The position numbers and the translations under genes were made by a program. From an uncultured Rhizobiaceae group bacterium (GTDB lineage: Bacteria; Pseudomonadota; Alphaproteobacteria; Rhizobiales; Rhizobiaceae): a stretch of DNA of 64,000 bases. The stretch lies in assembly GCA_937958815.1 (NCBI GenBank), contig CALGMR010000004.1, positions 186,001-250,000 on the forward strand, in the 5' to 3' direction. Positions 56 to 22,482 of the stretch are shown piece by piece. The notes under the pieces are model-generated. The model did not search any database, had not been told where the DNA came from, and worked only from the letters and a program-made list of their open reading frames with translations. How positions within the stretch are numbered: position 1 is the first letter of the stretch; each line of letters begins with the position of its first letter.

Positions 56-1582
56 TTAGAAAATTCCCCGCAACAAAGGTCCCCACAGATCGGCATCTTT
101 GACGAAACCAAGCCAAGACGGAATGCCCAATGAGATGAACGGGAAATAGGTGATCAGAAAAATCACGAACACTTCCACCGCAAGAAACGGCAGAATTGCA
201 CGAGATATGGTTTCCACTTTCACGCCGGAAACCGACGAAGCCACAAACAACACCAACCCCATTGGCGGTGTGGCCAGCCCGACCGTGAGGTTGACCGACA
301 TGATCATAGCGAAGTGGACGGGATGAATGCCCAAATTGATGAAGATCGGCGCAAGGATCGGCCCCAGAATAATAATCGCAGGGCCAGCATCCAAAAACAT
401 GCCAACGATGAACAATAGCAAGTTGATGAGCAAAAGCAGCATCAACGGATCGCTGGTGAGCGTCAAAATAAAACTGGCCAAATTTTCCGCTGCGTAAGAA
501 AGGCTGACAACCGTTTTGAACGCCATAGCTGCGCCAACAAGCAGCAACACAACAGACGATGTGATTGCAGCCTTAATGAGAACATTCGGCAATTCGTTCA
601 ATTTCAAAGTGCCGAGAACCAACAAGCCCAACAAAGCTGCATAGGCCACAGCAAGTGCAGAAGCCTCCGTTGGCGTTGCGATACCACCCAAAATGCCACC
701 AAGAATAATGACAGGTGTAAGAAGTGGCAGCACAGCACGCTTTGCAATGACGCGAAACTGCTCCCGCATCAATTTGCGTTGCAGTTGGAAAAACGCTTCG
801 GTTACAAACAAAGCAATTGCAAAATAGATCGCAAACTGCATCCACTCTCGCTCTCCATCACCCGCAACGAGTCTTGTCACCAACGGATAAAGAACGGCGG
901 CCAACATGAGGCGTGCAATAATTCTTGCGGCCCAATTCTCTCCAATTGATATGCGAACATCATCGGGAACGTAGCGCTTTGCCGGTGGATATTCGTATCG
1001 GTTGGCCATGACCCGTGTCACGATCATCAAACCAAGGCCCACCAACACACCAGGGATAATGCCGCCCGCGAAGAGCGCTGCAACAGACACTTCCATCACA
1101 TAGGCGTAGATGATCATAATGCCTGAAGGCGGAATGATCGGCCCGATGACAGAGGATGCTGCCGTAATCGCCGCAGAAAACTTGCGCGTATAGCCTTCTT
1201 TTTCCATCGCTGGAATGAGCATAGACCCAAGCGCCGATGTATCAGCCACGGCTGAACCCGACATGCCTGCAAACAACATGGACGACAGAATATTCACCTG
1301 CGCCAAACCACCACGCACTGACCCGATGATCGCTTGCGAGAAGGACACCAATCGTTCGGTGATGCCACCGCGGTTCATCAACTCACCTGCCAACATGAAA
1401 AACGGAATGGCCAGCAGAACGCCGTTGTCGATGCCGTTAAAAATATTGCGATACATCAACGCCACATCGCGCTCTTGTCCGTTGAGATAAAGCAACAGAC
1501 CCGGCGCGGCCAACATGGCGAAAAAGACGGGAACGCCCACCAAAAGAAGAACAAGGAAAAGTGGAAGGAACCAAGCCAGCAT
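56..1582 (-). CDS. dctM: TRAP transporter large permease (DctM family), enlarged
   Basis: Twelve-or-more-helix integral membrane subunit of a TRAP importer, which couples uptake of an organic anion to the sodium gradient. Recognisable family blocks include the SGSAVADTSALGS segment and the following GPIIPPS segment. At 508 residues it is longer than the usual 425 or so. The extra length is a central insertion (about residues 190-270) that seems to carry additional hydrophobic helices. It starts 3 bases after the stop of dctQ, so the two are cotranscribed, downstream of a monooxygenase/reductase operon. No dctP gene is visible beside them; it may lie beyond the left edge. The substrate is inferred only from context, sulfoquinovose or a glycoside of it. 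The family call is firm. Confidence 0.93.
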   Translation of the reverse strand: MLAWFLPLFLVLLLVGVPVFFAMLAAPGLLLYLNGQERDVALMYRNIFNGIDNGVLLAIPFFMLAGELMNRGGITERLVSFSQAIIGSVRGGLAQVNILSSMLFAGMSGSAVADTSALGSMLIPAMEKEGYTRKFSAAITAASSVIGPIIPPSGIMIIYAYVMEVSVAALFAGGIIPGVLVGLGLMIVTRVMANRYEYPPAKRYVPDDVRISIGENWAARIIARLMLAAVLYPLVTRLVAGDGEREWMQFAIYFAIALFVTEAFFQLQRKLMREQFRVIAKRAVLPLLTPVIILGGILGGIATPTEASALAVAYAALLGLLVLGTLKLNELPNVLIKAAITSSVVLLLVGAAMAFKTVVSLSYAAENLASFILTLTSDPLMLLLLINLLLFIVGMFLDAGPAIIILGPILAPIFINLGIHPVHFAMIMSVNLTVGLATPPMGLVLFVASSVSGVKVETISRAILPFLAVEVFVIFLITYFPFISLGIPSWLGFVKDADLWGPLLRGIF

Positions 1583-1585
1583 CGC

Positions 1586-2188
1586 TTATTCCCCCGCCAT
1601 CGAAATAGGAGAAGGTGGTGGTGGAAACGCTTCATCATTCCACACCAGTCTGCCGACCAAACGCAAAATCAGTTCAACTGAAACCGAAATCAGCATCACC
1701 AGCAAAACGCTCATGGCCAGATAAATATAGGCCGTGCGGAATTGAAGTTCTGTGCCCAACAATTGGTTGAGCCCTGAATCCTGCAGCAAGCGGTTCAAGC
1801 CGGATGAATCAAACAACAAGGGTGCCGAAAAATGCGCCCAAGCTTGATCCAGCATAATCACCAGCACGACCAGCGATAAAATGAGAATAGCCAGTGTAAG
1901 CGTATGACGTGCTTTGCGCGGCAGCATGTCTGGCAGCATGTCAATGGAAACGAAGCCCGCATAGCGATAGGCCGACGGCGCTACCAGAGCCATCATCCAA
2001 ATCATCAAGCCTCGCGCGGCTTCCTCTGGCCATGGCAGAGCGTTGTTAAGAACGTAGCGATAAAAAATTTGCAAAAGAACCGCAGCAACCATCAAAGCCA
2101 TCGCAGCACATCCAATGCCACGGCCAAGCTTCAAAACGCTTTGATTGATCATACCAATCAAGCGAATGATCGCCTGCAATCCTCCCAA
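1586..2188 (-). CDS. dctQ: TRAP transporter small permease (DctQ family)
   Basis: Four-helix membrane subunit that pairs with DctM and contacts the binding protein. The FYRYVLNNALPWPEE stretch (about residues 42-56) is the typical DctQ signature after helix 1. The protein is 200 residues, longer than the usual 160-170, with an extra loop rich in Leu, Asn and Ser near residues 123-148. I place the start at a TTG (2188), preceded by AGGGAGAAGG; an in-frame ATG at 2152 is the alternative. It lies 63 bases after the flavin reductase gene on the same strand, so it probably belongs to that operon. Confidence 0.88.
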   Translation of the reverse strand: MGGLQAIIRLIGMINQSVLKLGRGIGCAAMALMVAAVLLQIFYRYVLNNALPWPEEAARGLMIWMMALVAPSAYRYAGFVSIDMLPDMLPRKARHTLTLAILILSLVVLVIMLDQAWAHFSAPLLFDSSGLNRLLQDSGLNQLLGTELQFRTAYIYLAMSVLLVMLISVSVELILRLVGRLVWNDEAFPPPPSPISMAGE

Positions 2189-2251
2189 ATGCCTTCTCCC
2201 TATTCTGGCGACCCGCTCAAACCTCCTTCGAGCGGTTCACTAAAAATCTAT

Positions 2252-2809
2252 TCAACTCTTTGGCTTGAACCCACCAAATTTTCCCTTGGTGAACAGCAAC
2301 GGCGCGCCTTCATTTGCCACAACGCCATTCACCTTCCCAACGATGATAATATGATCTCCTGCATCATGAATTGCTTGTTGAGTGCAATCGAAACGGGTCA
2401 GTGCAGATGTCAAAACAGGCACTCCATTGTCACGAAACCGCCAATCGCAGGTTTCAAACGCATTCGCATTTTTTGCAAATTTTAACGCAAGCGCATCTTG
2501 ATTTTCATGCATGACGTGAATTGAATAGTGCTCGGCATTTTGAAATGCTTCAAAACGTCCTGATGTCTTAGACAAAGACCAGAGCACCAATGCTGGGTCC
2601 AACGAGACAGACGCAAACGAATTCACGGTCATTCCAATTGGTGTTCCATCCACAGAAGCTGTAATCACAGTTACGCCCGTTCCAAAATGCCCGAGCGCGT
2701 TTCGATATTCGCGCGCGTTGTCGGCAGATGGAACCAGTACATTTTCATGCACATTTACAGTCGCACGCGCATTTACTTTTGAATCTGATGTTACAATATC
2801 CATCCCCAT
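2252..2809 (-). CDS. smoA: NAD(P)H:flavin reductase, partner of the FMN monooxygenase (SmoA-like)
   Basis: Flavin reductase-like domain protein of 185 residues that should supply FMNH2 to the monooxygenase encoded two genes upstream. The flavin-binding core is visible in YRNALGHFGTGVTVITA and in GMTVNSFASVSLDPALVLWS, the usual pattern of the short-chain two-component flavin reductases. The ATG at 2809 overlaps the TGA of the preceding reductase gene (TGATG) and has GAGG 7 bases upstream; a GTG at 2812 is the alternative. Such a reductase is an obligate partner of SsuD-type enzymes. The order monooxygenase, aldo/keto reductase, flavin reductase is that of smoC-smoB-smoA in the Agrobacterium sulfoquinovose pathway. 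The family is certain; the specific role rests on context. Confidence 0.85.
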   Translation of the reverse strand: MGMDIVTSDSKVNARATVNVHENVLVPSADNAREYRNALGHFGTGVTVITASVDGTPIGMTVNSFASVSLDPALVLWSLSKTSGRFEAFQNAEHYSIHVMHENQDALALKFAKNANAFETCDWRFRDNGVPVLTSALTRFDCTQQAIHDAGDHIIIVGKVNGVVANEGAPLLFTKGKFGGFKPKS

Positions 2810-3711
2810 CACGCGACCTCGTGGCCAAGCGAGTGGGTGTAGATTTCAAACCAAGTTTGACGATCAATCGAAACTTTCGTGGCGTCTGAAAGTGACTTGA
2901 TACGCTCAAGATTGTTGGTGCCAAGCACCGGTAAAATTTGCGCCGGATGCGCGAGCAACCAAGCCACCGCAACCGCATCCACTCCAACATTCTGTTCGTC
3001 AGCAATGCGCTTTAGGCAAACCCGCATGTCCGCTGTTTCTGCATTACCACTGTCGAAAAGTGCGCCACCCGCAAGAGGCGACCACGCCATTGGCGTCACA
3101 CCATGCTGTTGATGAAACGCCAGATCGCCGTTTGTAAACGCATCTACAGCCAGCACGCTCATCTCAATCTGATTGGTGACCAATCTTTCCTTCATGGCAG
3201 ATTGCAACAAAGTCCAATCATGAGGCTTAAAGTTGGAAACACCAACTGACCCAACTTTACCGGAAGCTACTGCAGCATCGAGTGCCGCGCCTGTTTCATG
3301 ATGATCCATCAACGGGTCAGGACGATGAATAAGAAGAAGGTCAATATGTTCGATCTGCATTTCTTTCAGAGAATAATCGATCGATTTTTCAATATGTTTT
3401 GCGGAAGTGTCGTAATACTTCACCCGCGCATCGCTGTAGCGGCCTACGGGCGCCACGATATCGCATTTGGTGACGATCTCCATATTTTTACGCAAATGAG
3501 GCGCTTGTGCCAAACAAGCCCCCAAAATTGTTTCGGCTTCATAGCCTCCATAAATATCGGCTTGGTCAAAACTGGTAATCCCTTGATCAAGACAAGCCTC
3601 AATCTTGGCCTGAACATGTTTTACGGAAGTGTCCGCATCATCTCCCAATCGCCACATGCCATAGATTACACGGCTGAGTTCCAGTTTGTCGTTTAAGTTT
3701 ACGCGTTCCAT
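2809..3711 (-). CDS. smoB: Aldo/keto reductase, candidate 6-oxo-glucose reductase (SmoB-like)
   Basis: AKR-family NAD(P)H-dependent reductase of 300 residues. The catalytic tetrad is visible: Asp and Tyr in FDQADIYGGY, Lys in VTKCDI and His in LLLIHRPDP. The C-terminal coenzyme region includes PVLGTNNLERI. In the sulfo-ASMO pathway this enzyme reduces 6-oxo-glucose, left after sulfite is released from sulfoquinovose, to glucose with NADPH. The chosen ATG (3711) overlaps the TAA of the monooxygenase gene as TAATG. The open frame runs 26 codons further upstream, but that extension lies inside the neighbour and lacks family similarity. Sandwiched between the monooxygenase and its flavin reductase with no gaps, it is almost certainly part of the same pathway. 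Confidence 0.85.
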   Translation of the reverse strand: MERVNLNDKLELSRVIYGMWRLGDDADTSVKHVQAKIEACLDQGITSFDQADIYGGYEAETILGACLAQAPHLRKNMEIVTKCDIVAPVGRYSDARVKYYDTSAKHIEKSIDYSLKEMQIEHIDLLLIHRPDPLMDHHETGAALDAAVASGKVGSVGVSNFKPHDWTLLQSAMKERLVTNQIEMSVLAVDAFTNGDLAFHQQHGVTPMAWSPLAGGALFDSGNAETADMRVCLKRIADEQNVGVDAVAVAWLLAHPAQILPVLGTNNLERIKSLSDATKVSIDRQTWFEIYTHSLGHEVA

Positions 3712-4868
3712 TAACGGCGTTCTCCTGCACCGAGCGGTGTCTTGGGTGTTGTAGCTGGCACGCGCCCCTGCAAATGCGGGAGCGAGCACGTTTCCAAATG
3801 AGGCAATACGCGTTTTCCGAAACTTTCACACTCGTCTAAATGCGGATAACCGGAAAAGATGAATGCGCGTATGCCCATCTTTTTATAATCTTCAATCTGC
3901 GTCAAAATTTGATCTGTCGACCCCACCAGCGCCGCGCCACAACCAGACCGCGCACGGCCAACACCCGTCCAGAGGTGCGGCTCGATATAACCTTCAAGAT
4001 CAGCCAATTCGCGGTTTTTCGCTTGGTGGGAAACTCCCAGCGAGGTCGCGTCCAGTGCCCGTTCGCGGATCAATTTGCCCTGCTCGTCATCCAGTTTGGA
4101 CACCAATTCGCGCGCATATTCTTTCGCTTCCGCTTCTGTGTCGCGCACAATCATGTGGACACGCAATCCATAGTCGAGCACGCGACCATAATGTTCAGCC
4201 CGCTCGTTCACTGCTTTCATGCGCTCAGCAAGTTCTTCTTTTTTCTCAGGCCACATCAAATAGACATCGCAATGTTCGCCACAAAGATCTAACGCTGGTG
4301 GTGAATAGCCCCCAAAATACAGCAGCGGGCCGCCATTGGTTTGATAAGGTTTTGCTGGGTCCGTGGTCAAACCCTCAAACTGATAAACCTCACCTTGATG
4401 ATTGATCTCATCTTGCGTCCAAGCCTGCTTCAAAATTTCCACAACTTCACGCGAGCGCTTATAGCGATGCCCGCTGTCTTCTTTTTGACCTGGAAAATCC
4501 GAGGAAATGATATTGACCGTCAATCGGCCTTTCATCATATGGTCGAGCGTGGCAATCGTCCGTGCCAACATGATCGGCTGCATTTCACCACATCGCACAG
4601 CCGCCAACATATTGATGTTTTCAGTCAGCGGTGCATTACCAGCCACAAAAGTCAGCGTGTCCTGCCCTACCTGATAGGACGATGGGCAAAGAATGTTGCG
4701 ATAACCCAACTTGTCAGCGGCTTGAATGATTTTCGAGGTATTGTCCCAAGACGACCGCAAATCCCCATCAGGTTGGCCCAGATACTGATAGTCGTCTGAA
4801 CACAAAGGCGCGAACCACGAAACTTCCGCAGCGTTTGTGTCTTGCGATCGAATGGGGACGATGGACAT
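3711..4868 (-). CDS. smoC: FMNH2-dependent monooxygenase, SsuD/LLM family, candidate sulfoquinovose monooxygenase (SmoC-like)
   Basis: Luciferase-like TIM-barrel monooxygenase of 385 residues resembling alkanesulfonate monooxygenase. Blocks shared with SsuD include YRNILCPSSYQVGQDTLTF (about 56-74), GRLTVNIISSDFPG (114-127) and the RxH pair at 236/238. Arg307 sits in a segment followed by GAALVGS and matches the mobile active-site arginine region of SsuD. The reaction expected is O2- and FMNH2-dependent cleavage of the C-S bond of sulfoquinovose, giving sulfite and 6-oxo-glucose. It heads a minus-strand operon with the aldo/keto reductase and flavin reductase; the divergent GntR regulator starts 92 bases away. 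Simple alkanesulfonate use is less likely because SsuD operons do not need an aldo/keto reductase. Confidence 0.85.
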   Translation of the reverse strand: MSIVPIRSQDTNAAEVSWFAPLCSDDYQYLGQPDGDLRSSWDNTSKIIQAADKLGYRNILCPSSYQVGQDTLTFVAGNAPLTENINMLAAVRCGEMQPIMLARTIATLDHMMKGRLTVNIISSDFPGQKEDSGHRYKRSREVVEILKQAWTQDEINHQGEVYQFEGLTTDPAKPYQTNGGPLLYFGGYSPPALDLCGEHCDVYLMWPEKKEELAERMKAVNERAEHYGRVLDYGLRVHMIVRDTEAEAKEYARELVSKLDDEQGKLIRERALDATSLGVSHQAKNRELADLEGYIEPHLWTGVGRARSGCGAALVGSTDQILTQIEDYKKMGIRAFIFSGYPHLDECESFGKRVLPHLETCSLPHLQGRVPATTPKTPLGAGERR

Positions 4869-4915
4869 TTGTCAGCTCTACCCTGTACTCATTTTCTTGC
4901 GTTTGCTAGGCAATT

Positions 4916-4954
4916 GTGTATCAACTGCATATCAATATATCAATAGTGTATCAA
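4916..4954. promoter_or_regulatory. Four phased TATCAA repeats, candidate GntR operator
   Basis: The 92-base divergent region holds four copies of TATCAA starting at 4919, 4930, 4938 and 4949, so the spacing is 11, 8, 11. The outer pair are the identical nonamer GTGTATCAA (4916 and 4946, 30 bases apart); the inner pair are ATATCAATA. The array ends 6 bases before the GntR start codon, where it could control both the regulator and the monooxygenase operon. No convincing Shine-Dalgarno precedes the regulator, so the array also occupies the site where one would be. Confidence 0.55.
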
Positions 4955-4960
4955 TTTTAA

Positions 4961-5683
4961 ATGTCGCCCTTTTCCCCAACCAGCGCTGATGCAAGCGGCA
5001 AGCTGCCATTGCACATTCAAGTCAGCGAAATGTTGGCGCGCGAAATCCAGGCTGGCATTTACCCAGATGGAACAAAACTCGCGCCCGAACGTGACATGGC
5101 GCAAGAATTAGAAATCTCGGTAGGCACTTTGCGCAAAGCCCTTGCAGATTTAACCGAGAAGGGATTGCTGGAACGCGTTCATGGTTCGGGCAATTATGTT
5201 CGAAAGTCTGATACACCCCAAACAATATATGGCTTCTTCCGACTGGAACTGCTCAAGGGAGGCGGCCTGCCAACGGCGGAGATTCTCTCACTAAGAAAAC
5301 TGAAAAAACCGCGTGATTTACCCCAATTTGGTCATTCGGACTCTGGATTTCGCATTCGGCGGTGGCGCAGGCTTAACGGCGTGAATGCAGCAGTGGAAGA
5401 GATATGGCTGGATGGCGGTTACGCTGAAACGATAGTGCAAAGCGATCTTACAGATTCACTCTATCAATATTATCGCCAACAATTGAATTTGTGGATTACC
5501 CGTGCAGAAGACTCTGTCGGCGTCGCCCCTCCCCCAGCTTGGAAACCTGATGGTTTTGCCTCCAATGCATCCATTTGGGGCTATATCGAACGACACAGTT
5601 TTGATCAAAACAACGCCGTGGCCGAATTTTCCCGCACATGGTTTGACCCTACAACAACGCGCTTCATGGCTCGCTGGACTTAG
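4961..5683 (+). CDS. GntR-family regulator (HutC/UTRA type)
   Basis: 240-residue transcription factor with an N-terminal winged helix (about residues 14-82; PDGTKLAPERDMAQEL and VSVGTLRKAL-like recognition region) and a C-terminal UTRA effector domain (about 95-235). UTRA domains usually bind sugars, sugar phosphates or small acids. It is divergent from the candidate sulfoquinovose operon and 20 bases ahead of the Gfo/Idh/MocA gene, so it is the probable local repressor for both arms. The start at 4961 has no clear ribosome binding site and may be leaderless or translated weakly. Confidence 0.9.
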   Translation: MSPFSPTSADASGKLPLHIQVSEMLAREIQAGIYPDGTKLAPERDMAQELEISVGTLRKALADLTEKGLLERVHGSGNYVRKSDTPQTIYGFFRLELLKGGGLPTAEILSLRKLKKPRDLPQFGHSDSGFRIRRWRRLNGVNAAVEEIWLDGGYAETIVQSDLTDSLYQYYRQQLNLWITRAEDSVGVAPPPAWKPDGFASNASIWGYIERHSFDQNNAVAEFSRTWFDPTTTRFMARWT

Positions 5684-5703
5684 TACCTTCAAAGGATTTC
5701 AAC

Positions 5704-6792
5704 TTGACGACTTTGCAATACGGCATCATCGGATGTGGCATGATGGGCCAAGAGCACATCAAAAATATTCTTCTTTTGGGCAACACCGAGGTGACCGCGA
5801 TTTTCGAACCTAACGCAAAAATGCGTGAGGTTGCTCAATCATTGGTGCCATCGGTTCGGTTCGAACCTTCAATCGAGGATCTGTTGAAGAGTGAAGACCT
5901 TGATTGTTTGGTGATCGTCAGCCCCAACAATCTTCATGCAGATCAATTGCGTCTGATCGCTGAAATAAACCCTCTGCCGATATTGGTGGAGAAACCATTG
6001 ATCACAAATCCCAAAGATCAGGCCGATATTGAAAACATGATCGCAACCTACCCGTCTCCAATTTGGGTGGCCATGGAATATCGCTACATGCCTCCCGTGG
6101 CCGCTCTTATCAAACAAGCGGAAACGGCAACAGGAGGTGTAAAACTTCTCACCATTCGCGAACACCGTTTTCCCTTTTTGGAGAAAGTTGGAGATTGGAA
6201 CCGCTTCAATGAGAAGTCGGGCGGAACTTTGGTGGAAAAGTGCTGTCATTTCTTTGACCTCATGCGCTTAATTCTAAAGAGCGAGCCTATTCGGGTCATG
6301 GCGTCAGCTGGCCAATCCGTGAACCATCTTGATGAATCTTACGACGGCAAAACACCTGACATTTGGGACAATGGCTATGTCATTGTGGACTTTGAATCGG
6401 GCGCACGCGCAATGTTAGAATTGTGCATGTTCGCTGAAGGCTCACAGTATCAAGAAGAAATTTCAGCCGTCGGAGCCGATGGTAAAATCGAATGCCTTGT
6501 ACCTGGTCCGGGACGGTTCTGGCCTGAACACCTTGGACAGGCACCGACTCCAAAACTGATTGTAAGTCCTAGAAATCCGCGCGGGCCCATCGAAAGTGAC
6601 ATTCCAGTTGATCCAACCTTATTGGATGCAGGCGACCACAATGGATCAACTTTTTATCAGCACCAAAAATTTCAGCAAGTTGTCCTCAAAAAAACAACAC
6701 CAGAGGTTTCATTGAGCGACGGATTAATGGCGGTACAAATGGGCATGGCAGCGCAAAAATCGGCAATGACCGGGCAGTCGGTTGAACTCTGA
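5704..6792 (+). CDS. Gfo/Idh/MocA-family NAD-dependent protein, candidate sulfoquinovosidase (GH188/SqgA-type) or sugar dehydrogenase
   Basis: 362 residues with an N-terminal Rossmann fold (GIIGCGMMGQEH, 7-18) and the EKP motif with Lys97. A putative catalytic region follows, made of REHRFPF (152-158), VGDWNRF (162-168) and KCCHFFDLMR (179-188) with His182. The start is a TTG at 5704 with AAAGGA 7 bases upstream. Most relatives are sugar or inositol dehydrogenases, but the NAD-dependent sulfoquinovosidases (GH188) belong to this superfamily and are found in sulfoquinovose gene clusters. No GH31-type sulfoquinovosidase is present here, so this gene is the natural candidate for releasing sulfoquinovose from its glycosides. 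The family is certain; the glycosidase role is inference. Confidence 0.82.
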   Translation: MTTLQYGIIGCGMMGQEHIKNILLLGNTEVTAIFEPNAKMREVAQSLVPSVRFEPSIEDLLKSEDLDCLVIVSPNNLHADQLRLIAEINPLPILVEKPLITNPKDQADIENMIATYPSPIWVAMEYRYMPPVAALIKQAETATGGVKLLTIREHRFPFLEKVGDWNRFNEKSGGTLVEKCCHFFDLMRLILKSEPIRVMASAGQSVNHLDESYDGKTPDIWDNGYVIVDFESGARAMLELCMFAEGSQYQEEISAVGADGKIECLVPGPGRFWPEHLGQAPTPKLIVSPRNPRGPIESDIPVDPTLLDAGDHNGSTFYQHQKFQQVVLKKTTPEVSLSDGLMAVQMGMAAQKSAMTGQSVEL

Positions 6793-6854: not shown

Positions 6855-9029
6855 TTATAGAAGCAACAGACCGTCTGCGAAATTCTCAGCCAAGTCCAAA
6901 TCTGAAACATTGCGGAGGTTTGCCACATCATAAGCTGTGCCACTTAGATCCACACTTACGATCGTGTTTGCACCAGCCTCACGGCTGCTGACATCCGCCA
7001 ATGTGATGTCCAACGCAGTGAAGTCCAAAATATCGACAACTGAGTAGTCCAAAATCACATCAGTGAAAGAGCTCATCCCGTCAAAAATATCTGCAGCTTC
7101 CCAGATATATGTTTCCGTCCCGACACCCCCAGACAACACATCGTCACCTGCACCACCCTGGATCGTGTCGTGGCCTGAACTTGTATCAATGCGGTCATCG
7201 CCATTACCACCGTAAACGATGTCATCACCGCCCTGACCATAGAGTCTGTCATTGCCATCACCACCATAAAGCGTGTCATGACCAACACCAGCAGTGATGA
7301 AATCTTCGCCGGCGTCGCCATGAAGTTCGTCATGACCAGAACCGCCGACTATGCGATCATCTCCAGCACCACCAAAGATATCGTCATGCCCACCTTCTCC
7401 AAGAATGGTGTCGTTGCCATCATTGCCATAAACTACGTCGTCGGCATGGCCTGCCCGCACAGTGTCATTGCCATCGCCTGCGGTGATGTGATCGTACCCA
7501 GCGCCACCAAGAATATAATCTTTGCCCTCGCCACCTGTGATAACGTCGTCGCCTGAGCCGCCATCCAAACGGTCATTGCCATTACCACCATCAAGCGAGT
7601 CGTTGCCAGCTTGGCCGTAGAGGCGGTCGTTTCCTTCGCCACCGGTTAGAAGATCTTCGCCAATACCGCCAAGAACATAATCTGCACCGTCTTCACCGTG
7701 AACGACATCATCACCTTGGCCTCCGTTTAGGTGATCATCGCCAACGCCACCGAAAACGGTATCATTGTCTCCATCGCCAGTAATTCTGTCGTCACCATCA
7801 TCGCCGTAAAGAAGATCATCACCGTGGCTTCCGCGAATTAAGTCTGCACCAGAACCGCCATGAATTTCATCTGTGTCTTGAGCACCATAAATCAAATCAT
7901 CCCCATCTTCGCCATATGCAAAGTCGGTGCCCGAACCTGTATAAATTCTATCATTGCCTGATCCACCGTACAAAATATCGTTGCCAGATTGACCCCAAAT
8001 ACGGTCGTCATCATCTCCGCCGTAAAGTCTGTCGTCATTGGAGCCGCCTAAAATCCGGTCTTCGCCTTCGCCACCGTAAACGGTATCATTACCACCATTG
8101 CCTAGAAGGACGTCTGCGCCATCACCGCCCAAAATCTCATCATGACCCGAGCCGCCGTAAATTCGGTCTTCACCTTCACCGCCTTCTACGACATCGTGTC
8201 CACTGGATGCGTTGATATAGTCGTTGCCGGAACCACCATACAAATAGTCTGTGCTCGATCCGCCATTAATTCGATCATCACCGGCACCACCATAAATTAC
8301 GTCGATACCGGAACTGCCATTGATCCAGTCATTGCCGGCATCGCCATAAAGCAGATCATCATCAATGCCGCCATTGATGGTGTCATCACCGTCTCCACCA
8401 TGAATTTCATCTCGGCCGTTGCGGCCATAAAGAGTGTCATTGCCACCTCGGCCTTCAAGATAGTCATCACCAGCATTGCCATCCAAAAGGTTGTCATTTG
8501 CATCACCGCGCAATTGGTCATTTTGCAAACCACCAGTGATGTTTTCTATTCCACTATACTGATTGAAATATTGATCGGTGCCAGTTGCGAGATCGATATG
8601 AAAAGCAAAGTTTGCAACGGCACTTCCGACGATCTGGATCCGATCAATTCCGGAACCCCCAATAAAAATGTCGCCTGTGCCATCATCAAATCCAGCATAA
8701 AGCACGTCATCTCCAGCACCACCGTCAAGGGTATCCTTGCCGGAACCAGCCTCCAAAATATCGTTGCCGTTGCCACCATTCAATGTATCGCTGCCATTGC
8801 CGCCGATCAGTACATCATTTCCATCATCGCCATTAAGCGTGTCATCGCCATTGCCACCGTTTAGGTAGTCATCGCCGTTGCCGCCATTGAGCGTGTCGTT
8901 GCCGTTTCGGCCAAAAAGTTGGTCATTGCCATCAAGACCATTGATAATGTCTGGATTGGCTGAATTTGAGCTGTTGCGGCCAAAAATACGATCATCGCCG
9001 CTTGTGCCGTTGCGAGTTCTCGTAGCCAT
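6855..9029 (-). CDS. RTX-repeat calcium-binding exported protein
   Basis: 724-residue protein built almost entirely of glycine- and aspartate-rich nonapeptides of the type GGxGxDxLx (for example GGNGDDTLN and GGSGNDRIY). These fill most of residues 12-640, on the order of 65 copies, and fold into calcium-binding parallel beta rolls. There is no N-terminal signal peptide. The last 85 or so residues leave the repeat and contain the DVILDYSVVDILDFTALDI segment, a pattern often seen before the C-terminal signal of type I secretion substrates; the chain ends in LLLL. No enzymatic domain is visible and no type I secretion genes are nearby. A surface, matrix or adhesin-like role is possible but not shown. 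Confidence 0.9.
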   Translation of the reverse strand: MATRTRNGTSGDDRIFGRNSSNSANPDIINGLDGNDQLFGRNGNDTLNGGNGDDYLNGGNGDDTLNGDDGNDVLIGGNGSDTLNGGNGNDILEAGSGKDTLDGGAGDDVLYAGFDDGTGDIFIGGSGIDRIQIVGSAVANFAFHIDLATGTDQYFNQYSGIENITGGLQNDQLRGDANDNLLDGNAGDDYLEGRGGNDTLYGRNGRDEIHGGDGDDTINGGIDDDLLYGDAGNDWINGSSGIDVIYGGAGDDRINGGSSTDYLYGGSGNDYINASSGHDVVEGGEGEDRIYGGSGHDEILGGDGADVLLGNGGNDTVYGGEGEDRILGGSNDDRLYGGDDDDRIWGQSGNDILYGGSGNDRIYTGSGTDFAYGEDGDDLIYGAQDTDEIHGGSGADLIRGSHGDDLLYGDDGDDRITGDGDNDTVFGGVGDDHLNGGQGDDVVHGEDGADYVLGGIGEDLLTGGEGNDRLYGQAGNDSLDGGNGNDRLDGGSGDDVITGGEGKDYILGGAGYDHITAGDGNDTVRAGHADDVVYGNDGNDTILGEGGHDDIFGGAGDDRIVGGSGHDELHGDAGEDFITAGVGHDTLYGGDGNDRLYGQGGDDIVYGGNGDDRIDTSSGHDTIQGGAGDDVLSGGVGTETYIWEAADIFDGMSSFTDVILDYSVVDILDFTALDITLADVSSREAGANTIVSVDLSGTAYDVANLRNVSDLDLAENFADGLLLL

Positions 9030-12301: not shown

Positions 12302-13150
12302 TTAGAGTTCTATTTCTAACAAGTCTTCTGCGATGCCTGATTGACCTTCGAAGTGTGCCTTGAGTTGTTGATCAATGGTTTTGTGAACCTCATCTGTATC
12401 CATTGAAGATCGCAAGTGAGTGAGCAACAGCCTTCCTACGTCGCAGCGCTTTGCAAGCTGAGCAATTTCAACGGGGTCGGGAGACATTTTTCGAATGAAT
12501 GTGTTGCTTTCATCGCCAAGCAATCGGTAGCACCAGTGGATCAACAGATCGGCATTCTGAGCCAACGCCTCTATTTCATTGCATAAGGCCGCGTCGCCCG
12601 TATAGACGAATGACTTTTCATCGACGTCCAGTCTGAACGCCATCGATGTTAATTGGGGCTGGGCATGGTAAGCCGTGCAAGATGTTAGTCGCCAATTGGC
12701 ACCAACAAACGAATATCCAGGCTCAATTTCTGTTATTTCAGGGTCGGGCCAAGGTCGTGGCAGAGTGCCGCCCCGTTCCACCCAGACCTCTTGACTGCCT
12801 GCATTCTCGGTGCGTGCGATCAGGTCAGTGGAAAAGACACCATCATGCCCAAACAGTTTCTGCGTGATAGACGCGATTGGCGCTGGCCCAAAAACTTTAA
12901 TAGGAGTGCCGCCTTCATCCCAGGCGGCGTGGACCAATCGGGCATAGTCCATCATGTGATCAGAATGTAGGTGGGTGAAAAACAAATGTGTAATGTCAGA
13001 AGGTTTTCGACCAGATTGCACGAGGCGATCAAAGACACCACCACCACAATCCATCAAAATCACATCCTCACCTGTCTCTATCAGAAAGCCCGAGGATGCG
13101 CGGCGAGGGTTAGGCTCAGGACATCCTGTGCCAAGGCATGTGATTTTCAT
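12302..13150 (-). CDS. MBL-fold metallohydrolase (RNase Z/arylsulfatase-like)
   Basis: 282-residue metallo-beta-lactamase fold hydrolase. The zinc signature HxHxDH is at 60-65 (THLHSDH). A further conserved Asp lies in YTGDAA and a C-terminal His in LLLTHLRSS, the layout of RNase Z-like and type III arylsulfatase-like enzymes. No signal peptide, so cytoplasmic. It overlaps the sulfatase gene by 4 bases (ATGA), so the two are translationally coupled and probably work on the same substrate. It could hydrolyse a lactone, ester or sulfate ester liberated in this pathway; the sequence does not say which. A housekeeping RNase Z is unlikely in this operon. Confidence 0.85.
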   Translation of the reverse strand: MKITCLGTGCPEPNPRRASSGFLIETGEDVILMDCGGGVFDRLVQSGRKPSDITHLFFTHLHSDHMMDYARLVHAAWDEGGTPIKVFGPAPIASITQKLFGHDGVFSTDLIARTENAGSQEVWVERGGTLPRPWPDPEITEIEPGYSFVGANWRLTSCTAYHAQPQLTSMAFRLDVDEKSFVYTGDAALCNEIEALAQNADLLIHWCYRLLGDESNTFIRKMSPDPVEIAQLAKRCDVGRLLLTHLRSSMDTDEVHKTIDQQLKAHFEGQSGIAEDLLEIEL

Positions 13151-14601
13151 GTAGAAATCTCCGGTGGTGGGGTTGCTGCAGGAGCGCCCAATTTCAAAGC
13201 CGCCTCTCTCCCACCATATCTTTCAATCATTGCCGCTTGATCCGCATGGGCAAGAGCGTCGGTTTCCTCCGGGTCACAGATAGATTGGAGTTCAGCGTTT
13301 AGCTCTTCCAATTTGAGTACAAATTCAGCGCTATGAGCCAAATTTTGTAACTCTTCAGGGTCATCTTTCAGATTGAACAGTTCAGGTTCGAAACCCACAT
13401 AATGGATGTACTTCCAAGCGCCCTTTCGAACCATAAAAGCGCCGCTCACCGCACCGGCAGCATGGTACTCACTGAAGACCACACGTTCGGGATCATAGGG
13501 CATAGATGCGATGTCTTTGATCGACGATCCAGGCGTGTCGCAAGAAAGGGATGTTCCAAAATGTTCTGCGATGGTGGCCGACACATCGATCCAGCTAACT
13601 GGCGTGTGACAGATTGAAGGCGCCAGATGTGGACCGCTCATAATCATCGGAATAGCGGCTGATTCTTCATACATATTGGACTTGCCCCACAAGCCGCGTG
13701 CCCCCACGTTGTCACCGTGATCAGAGGTGTAAATGATGGTGGTGTTGTCTCGAAAACCCGCCTCGTCCAACGCTTTCAGAATGCGTCCCACATTGTAATC
13801 GAGCCAAGAACATAATCCGTAATAGCTCGCCATCGCAGTGAGACGTTCTTCTTCGTTTTTAAACTTGTCCTCGGAACTTCCCATGGCGTTTTGTTTTTCA
13901 ACCCAAGGGTGGCGTATATAGCCCTTTGCGGGGTGCTGTTTTACTTCTGGCAATTCGTCCAGTGGATAAAGTTCAAAAAATTCCGGCGGCACAACAAGTG
14001 GGAAATGTGGAGCGACCAGACCTACATAAAGGCACCATGGATCGGAGCTCATGTGTGAACGATCATGCAACCATTTGATCGTTCGACTAACCACAGCCTC
14101 GTCGTACTCTGTGTATTTGCTGTGACCAGGGCCGATATAGTCACCGAGCATACGACCGGGCACAGAGACACGCTCTTCTTCTTTGCGGATAGATGCCCAT
14201 ACCATCCCCACACCACCAGCCACTTGCATGGGAATGTGTTCAACATCAAAACCTGCCGGATCTTCATCGCTGCGATAGTGAAGCTTTCCAATGCTCTCCA
14301 CTGTTACACCTTTTTCTTGAAGTGCGTGGCCCCAGCCTTTCGGTTTGCCGGAATAAGGCATGGCATTGTCCCAAAGACGATTAACATGAACGTATTGGCC
14401 GGAAGCGAACGACGCTCGTGCAGGGACACAGATGGGAGACGGTGTATAGGCGTTGGTGAACCGAATGCCCCGTGCTGCCAATCTGTCCAAATTCGGCGTT
14501 TTGATATCAAGTTTGTTGGCCCATTCGACAGCACATCCCATGGCGCGGGATTGATGCTCGTCAGAAACGATCAAGAGAAGATTTGAAGACTTCTCAGACA
14601 T
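13147..14601 (-). CDS. Cytoplasmic type I (formylglycine) sulfatase
   Basis: 484-residue alkaline phosphatase-fold sulfatase. The formylglycine motif C-x-P-x-R is CVPAR with Cys58, followed by ASFASG. Metal ligands are suggested by Asp14 (SDEH) and by TSDHGDNVG later in the chain, and GKLHY resembles the conserved GKWH region. Overall layout is close to choline sulfatase-like members of family S1. The N-terminus has no signal peptide, so its substrate must first be imported. It overlaps the MarR gene as TAATG and the MBL gene by 4 bases. A formylglycine-generating enzyme is needed but is not in the window. Confidence 0.93.
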   Translation of the reverse strand: MSEKSSNLLLIVSDEHQSRAMGCAVEWANKLDIKTPNLDRLAARGIRFTNAYTPSPICVPARASFASGQYVHVNRLWDNAMPYSGKPKGWGHALQEKGVTVESIGKLHYRSDEDPAGFDVEHIPMQVAGGVGMVWASIRKEEERVSVPGRMLGDYIGPGHSKYTEYDEAVVSRTIKWLHDRSHMSSDPWCLYVGLVAPHFPLVVPPEFFELYPLDELPEVKQHPAKGYIRHPWVEKQNAMGSSEDKFKNEEERLTAMASYYGLCSWLDYNVGRILKALDEAGFRDNTTIIYTSDHGDNVGARGLWGKSNMYEESAAIPMIMSGPHLAPSICHTPVSWIDVSATIAEHFGTSLSCDTPGSSIKDIASMPYDPERVVFSEYHAAGAVSGAFMVRKGAWKYIHYVGFEPELFNLKDDPEELQNLAHSAEFVLKLEELNAELQSICDPEETDALAHADQAAMIERYGGREAALKLGAPAATPPPEIST

Positions 14602-15074
14602 TAAAAATCCCGACGCTCGGCATTCAACTCAAGCTTTTCAAGCGCTGAAAACAATGCCGCTTTTTCGGTGTCCGTCACATCATGCAATAGGTGTTTTTGC
14701 CGTTTGCGCATGATGGTAATGACTTGACCATATATTTCATTTCCTTTGTCGCTCAACGACAACAGTTGGCGACGTTGATCGAGATCATCTGCGTCTGCGA
14801 CAATGAATTCCTCAGACACAAGCGTCTTTAGTGAGCGACTAAAGAGACCTTTATCCATATTCACTTTGTTTATAATGTCCGACGACGGAACTTTTGGACC
14901 GAACGCATTCAGCCAGGCAAGAATGCGCCATTGCACCAGATTCAATCCGGCTTCCTTACGCAATATGTAGGCAGCTTGCGCATTCAGCTTGGAATGAACT
15001 TTTGAAATTCGATAAGTTGCTAACGCGAGCAGTTCACTCGCCGGCATTTCTTTCTTTGCTAACTGGTTTTTCAT
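14601..15074 (-). CDS. MarR-family transcriptional regulator
   Basis: About 157 residues with the MarR winged helix: LVQWRILAWLNAFGP, SSDIINKVNMDKGLFSRSLKTL and the DDLDQRRQLLSLSDKG wing. I start it at the ATG at 15074, preceded by GGGAAAGG; the frame is open 28 codons further but that part overlaps the divergent promoter region. It heads the MBL-sulfatase arm and is divergent from tctCBA, so it probably controls both arms. MarR proteins usually repress and are released by an aromatic or acidic ligand. Confidence 0.9.
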   Translation of the reverse strand: MKNQLAKKEMPASELLALATYRISKVHSKLNAQAAYILRKEAGLNLVQWRILAWLNAFGPKVPSSDIINKVNMDKGLFSRSLKTLVSEEFIVADADDLDQRRQLLSLSDKGNEIYGQVITIMRKRQKHLLHDVTDTEKAALFSALEKLELNAERRDF

Positions 15075-15091
15075 AGCGCGCCTTTCCCGAC

Positions 15092-15124
15092 GCCAAATTG
15101 GCCTCAGTTTTCTTGACGGGTCAA
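15092..15124. promoter_or_regulatory. Two palindromes, candidate MarR operators
   Basis: The 99-base divergent gap between marR and tctC carries GCCAA-A-TTGGC (15092-15102) and TTGAC-GG-GTCAA (15113-15124). Both are perfect inverted repeats with centres 21.5 bases apart, about two helical turns, as expected for two MarR dimers on one face. Confidence 0.55.
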
Positions 15125-15173
15125 CCAACTTATGGAACGCTTTGGAAAAATCAATCATCAGTGGGAGAACGAA

Positions 15174-16127
15174 ATGATGAAGAAAACACTATTTGCAGGC
15201 ATTGCAGCCCTAGGAATGTTGAGCGCAACCGCGTCTGCCGCGCTAGCAGAATGGAAACCATCCGGCCCGATCAAATTGATCATTGCTTTTAAAGCCGGCG
15301 GTGGTGCTGACACGCAGGGACGGTTGATCGCTGAGCACATTGAAAAAACCAGAGGCTGGAAAGTTATCCCAGAAAACGTCACCGGCAAAGGAGGCGTGAA
15401 CGCATTATCTGCGCTGAAAGATCAGCCTGCAGACGGAACGGCCATCGGGATTCTCGTAACTGAAAGCCTTGGATACAACATGGCAGCGGCCAAAAAATCT
15501 GGCTTGAAACCCAGCGACTTTACACCGCTGGCCACCACCGCCGGTTTCCAGATGGGCCTTGTGGCCAAAACCGACAAAGGTTGGAAATCTATAGATGATG
15601 TGGTTGCGGCAGCAAAAACCGGTCAGAAAATTCGCTTTGGCGCAATGAGCCCCCGACTGGCTGATCTGGCTTACCTGTTGGGTAAGGCAAAGGGCATCGA
15701 ATTCAATACAGTGATGGTTCGCGGTGGCAAAGGCGTGATGAACGGCCTCAATGCTGGCGATATTGATATTGGATTCGGGGCAGGCATTCAAAACAAGGCG
15801 GTTGCTGCGGGTGATATGATAAATCTTGCATCCGGCATGTCCACCCGTTTGAAAATTTCACCTGATGCACCAACGTTGAGAGAGCTTGGTGTTGGTTTTG
15901 ATGCCGACGGTTATTTTGTAACAGTTGCGCCTGCAGGTCTGCCAGATGAAGCGCGCGCGGCATTAACTGGCGCCATTGAAGAGGCTGTGACAAAAGAAGG
16001 TTCAAAAGCCGCAGGCATGATGAAAAAAGCCTTTGGTGGAGCGACCGTCATTAAGGGTGCCGAACTGGACAAGCTTATTCAAGAAGGTTTTGATTCAGCA
16101 GGCGTGCTGATGAAAGCGTCCCAGTAA
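15174..16127 (+). CDS. tctC: TTT-system solute-binding protein (TctC/Bug family)
   Basis: Periplasmic binding protein of a tripartite tricarboxylate transporter, about 317 residues. A cleavable signal peptide (KKTLFAGIAALGMLSATASAALA) is followed by the Bug-type start PIKLIIAFKAGGGADTQGR. Bug proteins bind carboxylates and other small anions through two beta-strand loops. I start it at the ATG at 15174, with GGGAG 6 bases upstream; the next codon is also ATG. It is followed by a strong terminator-like hairpin, then tctB and tctA. Confidence 0.92.
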   Translation: MMKKTLFAGIAALGMLSATASAALAEWKPSGPIKLIIAFKAGGGADTQGRLIAEHIEKTRGWKVIPENVTGKGGVNALSALKDQPADGTAIGILVTESLGYNMAAAKKSGLKPSDFTPLATTAGFQMGLVAKTDKGWKSIDDVVAAAKTGQKIRFGAMSPRLADLAYLLGKAKGIEFNTVMVRGGKGVMNGLNAGDIDIGFGAGIQNKAVAAGDMINLASGMSTRLKISPDAPTLRELGVGFDADGYFVTVAPAGLPDEARAALTGAIEEAVTKEGSKAAGMMKKAFGGATVIKGAELDKLIQEGFDSAGVLMKASQ

Positions 16128-16150
16128 AGCCTCTCTTCAAGTCGTATTGT

Positions 16151-16183
16151 GAACAATGGGTCAATCGCCCATTGTTCTTTTTT
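16151..16183 (+). terminator. Intrinsic terminator/attenuator between tctC and tctB
   Basis: A perfect 10-bp stem GAACAATGGG/CCCATTGTTC with a 7-base loop is followed by six T. It lies inside the operon, between the binding protein and permease genes. Partial read-through would give more TctC than TctBA, as such systems need. Confidence 0.85.
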
Positions 16184-16200
16184 GTTATGTTGGACTTTAA

Positions 16201-16770
16201 ATGACAATCGGCACCCACTCCAACACAAAGACGAACGCCATCCTTGGCGTGGTTGTGGTTGTCCTCGCGTTGATAATAGGCTTCATCTGGATCCCCGCAG
16301 ATATAGACACTGGTATTTTTGAAAAAGCGCGGCGACGGCTGGAAATTGGCGATGCATTTGCTCCAACCTTAGCCACCACTCTTCTTGGCCTTGGCGGCGC
16401 TCTGCTCATCGCGGAAGGGCTTACTTCCAAATCCAACTTAAAAGTTGATGCGCGCAGCCTTGTTTTCGCACTCGGGCTTTTATCGGTATTTGCCATCTTT
16501 ATTGCGCTGTTGTTGTGGACTGGCCCCATTCTCGTTGCGCTTTTTGGCGCGGAAGGAGCTGAATACCGCCTGTTGCGCGACACTGCCCCTTGGAAATATT
16601 TGGGTTTTATCACCGGCGGCACTTTCATTGTCGCAGCGCTCATCAGTTTCATGGAACAGCGTTTTACCATCAAAGCGCTGGTGATCGGCACGGTCGCGTC
16701 ACTTGCAATGATCATTTTGTATGACCTGCCGTTCGATGATCTCTTGTTGCCACCCAACGGAGACTTCTGA
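16201..16770 (+). CDS. tctB: TTT-system small membrane protein (TctB)
   Basis: 189-residue protein with four predicted helices (roughly 13-33, 57-77, 86-110 and 135-175), the typical size and layout of TctB. It is the poorly conserved small subunit that pairs with TctA. Its TGA overlaps the ATG of tctA by one base. The start has no strong ribosome binding site, so expression may be low compared with tctC. Confidence 0.85.
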   Translation: MTIGTHSNTKTNAILGVVVVVLALIIGFIWIPADIDTGIFEKARRRLEIGDAFAPTLATTLLGLGGALLIAEGLTSKSNLKVDARSLVFALGLLSVFAIFIALLLWTGPILVALFGAEGAEYRLLRDTAPWKYLGFITGGTFIVAALISFMEQRFTIKALVIGTVASLAMIILYDLPFDDLLLPPNGDF

Positions 16771-18359
16771 TGAGTGTTCTGGACTACGTTTGGCTGGGCA
16801 TATTGGCGGTGTTCCAAGGGCCGGAACTGTTCAGCTTCTTTGGAATGTCGGTTTCCATCACGATAGCAATGGTGCTGGCTGGTTTCCTACTTGGCATCAT
16901 TGTTGGCAGCACACCTGGGTTGGCCGGCCCTATGGCACTGGCGATATCGCTGCCCATTCTAATTTCTATATTTGGCTATTCGCAGGAAGCACTGCTGCCC
17001 GTCATGGGCTTTCTGATTGGGGTGATGAAAGGTGCAACTGTGGGTGGTGCCGTGCCCGCAATCCTGTTCAACACGCCTGGAACACCAGATGCCTATATGA
17101 CGACGCTCGATGGATATCCCATGGCGCAAAAAGGTGAAGCCGGGAAAGCTTTGCGGATTGCTCATTTTTCATCGGCCAGTGGTGACACGTTTTCAGATAT
17201 TGTTCTCATCGTTTGCGCACCATTTCTCGCCATTCTTGTTGAATCCTATTTAGACCTGCCGGAGAAAACCGCGCTCCTGATATTGTCCATGGCCTTCATC
17301 GCAGCTGTGGTTGGCGGTTCCCCCGCGAAAGGATTGATTTCAGCCTCGCTTGGTCTTCTCATCGCCTATATCGGAACTGGAGAAGATTTTACGCCGCGTC
17401 TTACGATGGGCTATCAAGGCGTAGCCTCTGGATTTCCGATTGCTGCCGTTATTCTTGGGGTTTTGATTTTAGGCGAAGTGTTCAAGTCCATCGAAGACCT
17501 TTGGCAAGAAAACAAAAAAGATCAAAGTCTGACCAAACCCGTTCAGCACAAAGCTTCCCGTCTGAGTTTCGAAACCATCAAAGGCTTGTTCCCTTATATT
17601 GCCCGATCCGCGTTCATAGGAACGGCAATAGGAGCTTTGCCGGGCATTGGCTCCACCCTAGCGGCGACACTTGGCTACGCTTCAGGAAAATTCAGGCACC
17701 AAAAGGTGCAAGACCAGAACGCAACATCATTTGGCAATGGTGCACCTGAAGCGATAGCGGCAACAGAAGCTGCAAACTCATCCGTTTCGGGTGCCAATCT
17801 GATTCCGGTTTTATCCCTGGGCATACCTGGCAATGCGTCCGCCGTATTCCTCATACTTGCTGCAGATTCAATCGGGAGTTTCAATCCCGGCCCATCAGTT
17901 TTTCGGTTTACAGTAGACAGCGTAAATCCAGAACTTGTGGTTGCCTTTGGATTGTTCACCATGATGATGCTGGCCAACCTGATGAATTGGACAATCGGCG
18001 GAGTCTTTATGCGTTCCATGGGCATTATGGCGCTCGTACCCAAACAAAAATTATTGCCGGTCATTCTCTTGCTCACGCTGACCGCAATATATGTTCAGGA
18101 AACCAAAATGGCGGCCGTATGGTTCACCATAGGTTTTGGCTTTCTTGGCTATTTTATGAGGCGTCTCGCCATCTCTCCGCTGCCGCTGGTTATCGCATTC
18201 ATTTTGGGTGGCCGGCTTGAGGAAACCGCAAGGGGCGCATTTTCCGCAACGGGCAGCGACCCATGGTTTCTGTTCAGTTCGTACACTTCGATTGCGATGT
18301 TAGTTGCGGCTGTAGGCGTGGTGTTCATTCTTTCGATCAAAGGGAAACCATCAGCATGA
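16770..18359 (+). CDS. tctA: TTT-system large permease (TctA)
   Basis: 529-residue, multi-helix permease. Family hallmarks are the repeated re-entrant motifs NTPGTPDAYMTTLDGYPM (about 98-115) and the second copy around SLGIPGNASAVFLIL. GSTPGLAGPMALAISLP near the N-terminus is also typical. It drives secondary import of an organic anion delivered by TctC. Its stop overlaps the start of the downstream sulfatase gene (ATGA), which argues strongly that the imported compound is a sulfate ester. Confidence 0.95.
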   Translation: MSVLDYVWLGILAVFQGPELFSFFGMSVSITIAMVLAGFLLGIIVGSTPGLAGPMALAISLPILISIFGYSQEALLPVMGFLIGVMKGATVGGAVPAILFNTPGTPDAYMTTLDGYPMAQKGEAGKALRIAHFSSASGDTFSDIVLIVCAPFLAILVESYLDLPEKTALLILSMAFIAAVVGGSPAKGLISASLGLLIAYIGTGEDFTPRLTMGYQGVASGFPIAAVILGVLILGEVFKSIEDLWQENKKDQSLTKPVQHKASRLSFETIKGLFPYIARSAFIGTAIGALPGIGSTLAATLGYASGKFRHQKVQDQNATSFGNGAPEAIAATEAANSSVSGANLIPVLSLGIPGNASAVFLILAADSIGSFNPGPSVFRFTVDSVNPELVVAFGLFTMMMLANLMNWTIGGVFMRSMGIMALVPKQKLLPVILLLTLTAIYVQETKMAAVWFTIGFGFLGYFMRRLAISPLPLVIAFILGGRLEETARGAFSATGSDPWFLFSSYTSIAMLVAAVGVVFILSIKGKPSA

Positions 18360-20832: not shown

Positions 20833-20834
20833 GT

Positions 20835-22100: not shown

Positions 22101-22104
22101 GTTT

Positions 22105-22482
22105 TCATTCCTTTGCCGTCAACACACTCAAGATCGCCGAAGCCGATGCGCGGTTCACCGCCAAAGGTGTCTCATATAAGATCGCTAAGCGTAACAGAGA
22201 TTTCACATCAACATCGTGTGGCACGGCTGTCATTGGATCTATAAAAAATATCAAGGCGTCGAGCCTACCTTCAGCGATCATTGCTCCAAGTTGGGCATCC
22301 CCTCCCATTGGACCGCTCAGCAAACGCTTCACTTGAAGCCCTGCATCATCTTCAAGGCGTTTTCCAGTTGTACCAGTTGCCAAAACGGAAAACTGGCCGA
22401 GTGCGCTCGCATTTTCGCGCGCCCATTCCACCATCGTCTCTTTCAGGGCATCGTGAGCCACCAGTGCAATGCAAGCAGACAA
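22105..22482 (-). CDS. mgsA: Methylglyoxal synthase
   Basis: Converts dihydroxyacetone phosphate to methylglyoxal and phosphate. Family blocks are CIALVAHD (4-11), ATGTTGKRL (35-43), SGPMGGDAQLG (56-66) and TAVPHDVDVKSLLRL (85-99). Asp62 and His89 match the catalytic Asp71 and His98 of E. coli MgsA. I place the start at a TTG (22482), 4 bases after the ltnD stop, with AAGG 8 bases upstream, giving 125 residues. Upstream ATGs would add residues lying inside ltnD. The C-terminus is short compared with E. coli (152). Its place in a tetronate operon that ends in DHAP is unusual. Confidence 0.9.
   Translation of the reverse strand: MSACIALVAHDALKETMVEWARENASALGQFSVLATGTTGKRLEDDAGLQVKRLLSGPMGGDAQLGAMIAEGRLDALIFFIDPMTAVPHDVDVKSLLRLAILYETPLAVNRASASAILSVLTAKE

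Follow-up and report, generated by a model that had tools for sequence, protein, structure and literature searches.

A gene cluster at the left end of the window, a stretch of 64,000 nucleotides from an uncultured Rhizobiaceae bacterium (assembly GCA_937958815.1, contig CALGMR010000004.1, here C4; window base 1 is C4:186001), is probably an operon for the scavenging of sulfoquinovose (SQ) and its glycosides. We estimate a probability of about 0.86 that it encodes a sulfoquinovose monooxygenase pathway (sulfo-SMO, or sulfo-ASMO) that is fed by a tripartite ATP-independent periplasmic (TRAP) importer and has a GH188 enzyme as its gateway. The enzyme steps are predicted from close homology to solved and assayed enzymes, and the cargo of the TRAP importer from comparative genomics. 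The enzymes appear to be of known kinds, and the carriage of SQ by a TRAP-type importer is possibly new. As a reservoir of organic sulfur, SQ is very large, with about 10 billion tons of it made per year (PMC10755693).

Open reading frame (ORF) and family scans gave seven intact genes, arranged in two divergent units. The TRAP set (DctQ, DctM, and DctP) is complete, with dctP lying past the window edge. The genes are as follows.

56..1582 (−), dctM, TRAP large permease (PF06808, 1.6e-114)
1586..2188 (−), dctQ, TRAP small permease (PF04290, 7.2e-21)
2252..2812 (−), smoA, flavin reductase, start at GTG 2812 or ATG 2809 (PF01613, 4.9e-36)
2809..3711 (−), smoB, aldo/keto reductase, predicted 6-dehydroglucose reductase (from matches to 7bbz/7bby)
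3711..4868 (−), smoC, luciferase-like monooxygenase (LLM), predicted FMNH2-dependent sulfoquinovose monooxygenase (from matches to 7oh2/7olf and a tree)
4961..5683 (+), gntR, GntR/UTRA regulator, divergent from smoC (PF00392, PF07702)
5704..6792 (+), sqgA, Gfo/Idh/MocA protein, predicted GH188 NAD-dependent sulfoquinovosidase (from matches to GH188 structures and key residues)
C4:184899-185966, dctP, just left of the window, next after dctM in the minus-strand row

As the original prediction had it, smoC, smoB, and smoA follow one another with overlapping stop and start codons. The smoC and smoB genes overlap by 1 base (TAATG), and in the sequence GTGATG the smoB stop codon TGA overlaps both candidate starts of smoA. 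The smoB start is placed at ATG 3711 by homology; the ORF start listed at 3789 is too early. Spacing and strand suggest that smoC-smoB-smoA-dctQ-dctM-dctP form a single transcript. The dctQM genes, the GntR/UTRA regulator, and the Gfo/Idh/MocA protein that had been named are all in place and intact. The claim that a SmoEFGH-type ATP-binding cassette (ABC) importer and a GH31 enzyme are missing from the cluster was borne out, as Pfam scans of the eight cluster proteins found no ABC component and no GH31 member.

Predicted desulfurization and glycoside-opening enzymes

The cluster enzymes were compared with the chains of the Protein Data Bank (PDB). SmoC matched 7oh2 and 7olf with 673.5 and 663.2 bits over residues 1–384; we take these two entries to be SmoC structures, and their PDB labels are alkanesulfonate monooxygenase and methanesulfonate sulfonatase. 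The best SsuD-type chain scored 207.8 bits, E. coli-type SsuD 188 bits, and SfnG 95 bits. In a tree of 90 rows (89 SmoC-like proteins and E. coli SsuD as the outgroup, with the solved SmoC sequences left out), the window protein was placed among the SmoC rows, and SsuD was on a very long branch. An SsuD or SfnG identity of the monooxygenase is ruled out by the bit scores (≤208 versus 674/663) and the tree, and its earlier assignment as SmoC, and not as an alkanesulfonate or dimethylsulfone enzyme, therefore stands. Six SmoC positions that we presume to belong to the active site are all kept. SmoB matched 7bbz and 7bby with 437 and 436 bits (next chain, 220 bits); these are presumably SmoB structures, labeled aryl-alcohol dehydrogenase in the PDB. 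The alignment proposed as a check thus came out in favor of the prediction, with SmoC and SmoB matching the solved enzymes from end to end. For SmoA, the best PDB match reached 139 bits, with no solved SmoA listed for comparison, and the assignment was made through PF01613 and the coupling to smoB. Sulfo-SMO clusters have been recognized by SmoB and SmoC genes no more than 10 ORFs apart (PMC13372026), and the two genes here are adjacent and overlapping. A second luciferase-family monooxygenase is encoded at window positions 24728-25723, and this gene and smoC are the only PF00296 matches in the genome.

SqgA is, as judged from its sequence, the glycoside-opening NAD-dependent sulfoquinovosidase. 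It matched the GH188 structures 8zn9, 8qc3, and 8qc2 with 538, 380, and 377 bits, and the next chain scored 55 bits. The structures 8QC2 and 8QC3 are of NAD-dependent sulfoquinovosidases of GH188, for which the key residues were given by Kaur et al. (PMC10755693). All nine of these residues (catalytic and R-L-K sulfonate-binding) are present in SqgA and in 73/73 aligned rows, which take in the window copy and three copies from the second type of SQ cluster described below. Glu153 of SqgA is one position off the printed Glu163 (PMC10755693) and was taken as the same residue. If SqgA were an ordinary sugar or inositol dehydrogenase, the cell would use free SQ only. General Pfam models do call it an oxidoreductase, and among the NCBIfam models it scores highest with inositol 2-dehydrogenase, where its 104 bits fall far short of the cut-off of 355. 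Given the GH188 scores and the nine kept residues, this alternative is highly improbable, and an IolG-type identity was rejected on the structure scores and the subthreshold model.

GH188 enzymes occur in sulfo-SMO clusters without GH31 and are nearly universal in the Roseobacter ones (PMC10755693). A GH188 gene was present in 61 of the 70 named SmoC loci (defined in the next section) with at least 2.5 kb upstream. The only GH31 protein over the family cut-off in the window's own genome is encoded on another contig; it scored 237 bits with α-glucosidases, 98 bits with YihQ, and 76 bits with 7ofx. Being nearer to α-glucosidases, it was rejected as a GH31 sulfoquinovosidase located elsewhere in the genome. 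The original prediction proposed a different way both to import and to open sulfoquinovosides. The opening by GH188 is supported, but it was already published in 2023 (PMC10755693), so that only the TRAP half is possibly new; as to import, the TRAP is real and recurrent. Directly beside sqgA, window positions 6855-9029 encode a 724-residue protein with many RTX-type nonapeptide repeats for calcium binding (25 stretches matched).

Distribution and predicted cargo of the TRAP importer

Eighty named SmoC loci, the best of at least 580 found in one scan of genome contigs, were typed for their importer by tblastn with the window proteins and ABC reference genes, and at least 5.5 kb downstream of smoC was required. 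As the best of a longer list, the named loci lean to close relatives, and 16 of the 80 are from Ruegeria or Silicibacter. Among the 69 well-flanked loci, 39 had the TRAP, 17 had matches to the ABC references without the TRAP (three of them called by the ATPase alone), and 13 had neither. The TRAP loci belong to Ruegeria, Planktotalea, Amylibacter, Marivita, Roseibium, Phaeobacter, and bins named Granulosicoccaceae and Oceanospirillaceae, and annotated public records show the same gene order up to dctP in, for example, Rhizobium sp. SL42, Ruegeria sp. TM1040, and THAF33. Conservation within the cluster is highest for DctP and SmoC, whose median identities to the window copy are 81% and 80%; the values for DctQ and SmoA are 41% and 47%. 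When the SmoC tree was labeled by importer (50 TRAP; 14 ABC, by binding protein or permease; 25 unlabeled), the label changed six to seven times, with at least four changes forced by well supported branches. These changes indicate that TRAP and ABC importers replace each other.

The cargo was approached through one draw of 385 alphaproteobacterial genomes. DctP was found at ≥81% identity in 11 genomes (next best, 51%) and SmoC at ≥74% in nine (next best, 52%). The two occurred together in eight genomes and lay within 5 kb of each other in six of these; they were on different contigs in G253, which is fragmented and 64% complete, and in G370. The other three DctP genomes (G082, G177, and G282) are without SmoC and carry, downstream of the TRAP, Sel1, and di-haem genes, an SQ cluster that resembles the sulfoglycolytic Embden–Meyerhof–Parnas (sulfo-EMP) type. 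All three have a PfkB kinase, a LacD-type aldolase, a fucose-isomerase-like protein, a GH188-like protein, a mutarotase, and an aldehyde dehydrogenase, the families being named on locus L095. A search of the 385 genomes with the isomerase gave more than 690 bits in exactly these three genomes and 404–437 bits in G395 and G307, which are without a close DctP; G395 has a 51% DctP in the same stretch as the isomerase. The DctPs linked to the sulfo-EMP-like clusters are nested in the clade of the smo-linked DctPs (Shimodaira–Hasegawa-like approximate likelihood ratio support, 87). Because one importer stands beside two chemistries, its cargo is predicted to be SQ or its glycosides, and the comparative evidence for an SQ cargo is strong. 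In two further loci (L100 and L102), more distant DctPs (51% and 40%) are encoded close to genes for kinases and aldolases that resemble those in the sulfo-EMP-like clusters.

The enzymes could form a sulfo-SMO pathway with the TRAP as a mere neighbor that imports another organic acid, in which case SQ would enter by a different transporter. The usual ligands of TRAP binding proteins are carboxylates (PMC4646407), no solved relative matches DctP with more than 111 bits (IseP, 101 bits), and the TRAP is not beside SmoC in G370. However, DctP accompanies SQ genes of the two chemistries in all 11 genomes of the draw that have it (with SmoC on another contig in G370 and G253), and the TRAP and ABC importers trade places along the SmoC tree; we consider this alternative unlikely. 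That the cluster, through shifted forms of these enzymes, serves another sulfosugar or a sulfonate, e.g., sulfofucose, is still harder to accept. Sulfofucose catabolism does exist, and the SQ specificity here is predicted from homology, but sulfofucose breakdown as described proceeds by different enzymes and with ABC importers (PMC12421959). Moreover, SmoC matches the solved enzyme over its full length with 674 bits, the nine GH188 residues are kept, and a second SQ-type pathway shares the TRAP.

Several observations weigh against the SQ operon with a TRAP importer proposed here. The 13 of 69 well-flanked loci with neither the TRAP nor the ABC references are one, and G370, where the close TRAP and SmoC are on separate contigs and another TRAP adjoins SmoC, is a second. 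The sulfo-EMP-like enzymes are distant from characterized ones: the only NCBIfam match of the isomerase is sulfoquinovose isomerase at 246 bits (cut-off, 700 bits), with no solved relative; the aldolase scored 316 bits with a DUF2090 protein, 135 bits with tagatose aldolases, and 78 bits with the sulfofructose phosphate aldolase YihT; and the nearest relatives of the aldehyde dehydrogenase are succinate-semialdehyde dehydrogenases. The three clusters are thus read as sulfo-EMP type mainly from their gene set with GH188. As to the binding site, IseP holds the sulfonate of isethionate via Arg156, Arg177, and Asn217 (PMC11668362), and R157, R178, and N218 of DctP, matched to these residues by motif and numbering and not by alignment, are invariant in 36/36 rows. 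Since Arg/Arg/Asn-type residues are general in TRAP binding proteins (PMC4646407), they are compatible with a sulfonate ligand but not diagnostic of one. The AlphaFold model of DctP (19 rows) was poor, with a predicted local distance difference test score of 65.7 and much of the second domain unresolved. Lastly, no PF03404 (SorA-type) or PF03601 protein was found in the window's own genome, in which other sulfite enzymes were not searched for.

For the TRAP-fed sulfo-SMO operon, we propose the following route. Acting between gntR and smoC, the GntR/UTRA protein would control the operon in response to SQ or a derivative. DctP would bind SQ or SQ-glycerol in the periplasm, probably with the sulfonate held by the Arg/Arg/Asn clamp as in IseP, and DctQM would import the cargo with an ion gradient. 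In the cytoplasm, the GH188 enzyme is predicted to open the glycoside via transient NAD-dependent oxidation at C3. SmoA would then supply reduced flavin to SmoC, which would split the C–S bond of SQ to give sulfite and 6-dehydroglucose, and SmoB would reduce 6-dehydroglucose to glucose.

The cluster resembles the Agrobacterium sulfo-SMO (sulfo-ASMO) system in SmoC, SmoB, the flavin reductase, a dedicated regulator, and C–S cleavage to sulfite and glucose. The Agrobacterium cluster (smoA-smoI) has the ABC importer SmoEFGH and the GH31 enzyme SmoI, whereas a TRAP (dctQMP) and GH188 are found here. The megaplasmid of Ruegeria sp. TM1040 has the same order of genes, which encode a Gfo/Idh/MocA protein, GntR, an LLM oxidoreductase, an aldo/keto reductase, a flavin reductase, the TRAP, a tetratricopeptide repeat (TPR) protein, and a cytochrome c peroxidase. 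In TM1040 alone, a Dabb-family gene separates dctP from the TPR gene, and the peroxidase gene is followed by one for a putative sulfate exporter; the window's genome has a different hypothetical gene between dctP and Sel1 and, as noted above, no detected PF03601 protein. Sulfo-EMP clusters of the Arthrobacter sp. AK01 type (PMC10755693) share the GH188 gateway, and in loci L094-L096 the same TRAP family adjoins a cluster of this type. Unlike the window cluster, clusters of that type have an isomerase-kinase-aldolase route and a DeoR regulator and lack SmoC. IseP belongs to the DctP family and has the two Arg and one Asn that correspond to R157, R178, and N218, but its ligand is a C2 sulfonate and not a sulfosugar (PMC11668362).

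The characterized SQ importers described in PMC12421959 and PMC11659671 are ABC systems, and TRAPs have been described for taurine and sulfolactate (PMC10507020) and for isethionate (PMC6386719). We found no paper tying SQ to a TRAP importer in a search that left aside the figures and supplements of PMC10755693, where a TRAP may be drawn, and the study of SQ in Roseobacter by Liu et al. (ISME J 2023). PMC1544339 likewise gave no link between SQ and a TRAP. If the TRAP serves two SQ pathways, DctP would be a marker gene for SQ uptake in environmental data. The TRAP family would also gain a sulfosugar ligand, and the conserved di-haem/Sel1 pair beside the transporter would have a concrete test case.

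Operator-like motif and di-haem companions

The gap between gntR and smoC holds two operator-like sites.

4939..4955 (−), operator-like site ATTGATACACTATTGAT, between gntR and smoC, perfect match to ATTGATNNACNATTGAT
4920..4936 (−), second, weaker operator-like copy with one mismatch

The GntR protein probably binds the operator-like site. In the window's own genome, ATTGATNNACNATTGAT has one perfect match (4939..4955) and two matches with one mismatch on another contig. A scan of the window gave three matches versus 0.21 expected, two in the gntR-smoC gap and one at 49171. With at most one mismatch, ATTGATnnnCnATTGAT was found no more than 260 bp upstream of smoC in 87 of 88 SmoC loci, which are not independent of each other; the match was perfect in 69, and the single miss is L021. 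TRAP-type and ABC-type loci have the motif alike, and none of 405 random windows from the same loci had it. The motif was also absent, at this stringency, from all four loci with this TRAP but no adjacent SmoC, one of which (L096) has a site with two mismatches inside a gene.

Two further genes accompany the importer to the left of the window, separated from dctP by one hypothetical gene; together they span C4:181730-183523 (L003:7730-9523).

C4:183050-183523, strand opposite to dctP, Sel1-repeat gene
C4:181730-183058, MauG-like di-haem gene

In the 385-genome draw, the di-haem protein was found at ≥58% identity in exactly the 11 DctP genomes, and its gene adjoins dctP in all of them (only partial in G253); this holds also for G370, in which TRAP and SmoC are apart. 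The next-best match (51%) is in G280, a genome without this DctP. The presence of Sel1 was scored in the fetched loci. Both genes were present in 26 of the 32 named TRAP loci with at least 2.5 kb beyond dctP, and neither was found in any of the 30 non-TRAP named loci with enough flank. The pair is missing from L005, which is closely related to the window and has a 95% identical DctP, and from L034, L038, L043, L051, and L063, whose DctPs are 69–74% identical; Rhizobium sp. SL42 also has the TRAP without a Sel1 or di-haem gene. The two c-type haem motifs of the MauG-like protein are invariant in 42/42 rows. MauG-type enzymes have two such motifs and, as a further mark, Tyr as an axial ligand of the second haem.

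Paralogues of the di-haem protein with 43–50% identity occur in six fetched loci. In four of them (L116, L117, L118, and L120; 43–46%), the neighbor is an FG-GAP/ASPIC protein (Pfam, 4/4), and a sugar-type periplasmic binding protein (PF13407 in the two tested, the other two by eye) and a ROK-type regulator (Pfam in the one tested) are nearby. The position of the paralogues by ABC importer genes suggests a wider link of such di-haem enzymes to sugar uptake loci. As the gene is kept with the TRAP in both cluster types and its paralogues lie by importers, the di-haem protein appears to follow the importer and not the pathway. A role in protection against H2O2 arising from the SmoC/SmoA pair was considered and dropped, because the protein also accompanies the TRAP in clusters without SmoC. 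MauG and MbnH oxidatively modify or work with partner proteins. By analogy, we tentatively suggest, as a possible though doubtful extension, that the TRAP is a sulfosugar importer for two SQ pathways and that a periplasmic MauG-like enzyme belongs to the core of this importer, with the Sel1 protein as the partner that the enzyme modifies by oxidation or cooperates with. If true, this would be an unrecognized step in sulfosugar uptake, and the paralogues with FG-GAP/ASPIC in place of Sel1 would represent a wider pattern.

Other features in the window

Two further loci were noted. At 12302-19882, two sulfatases flank a TctC-type receptor and further genes that were recognized by eye as tripartite tricarboxylate transporter-like and as a MarR-like regulator, and a metallo-β-lactamase-fold protein is also encoded (sulfatases, TctC, and lactamase fold from the family scan); this region is perhaps for the uptake and desulfation of a sulfate ester. 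At 20182-23395, a four-carbon acid sugar kinase (SBD_N/NBD_C) is encoded together with, by eye, a class II aldolase and a dehydrogenase, forming an otn/ltn-like locus.

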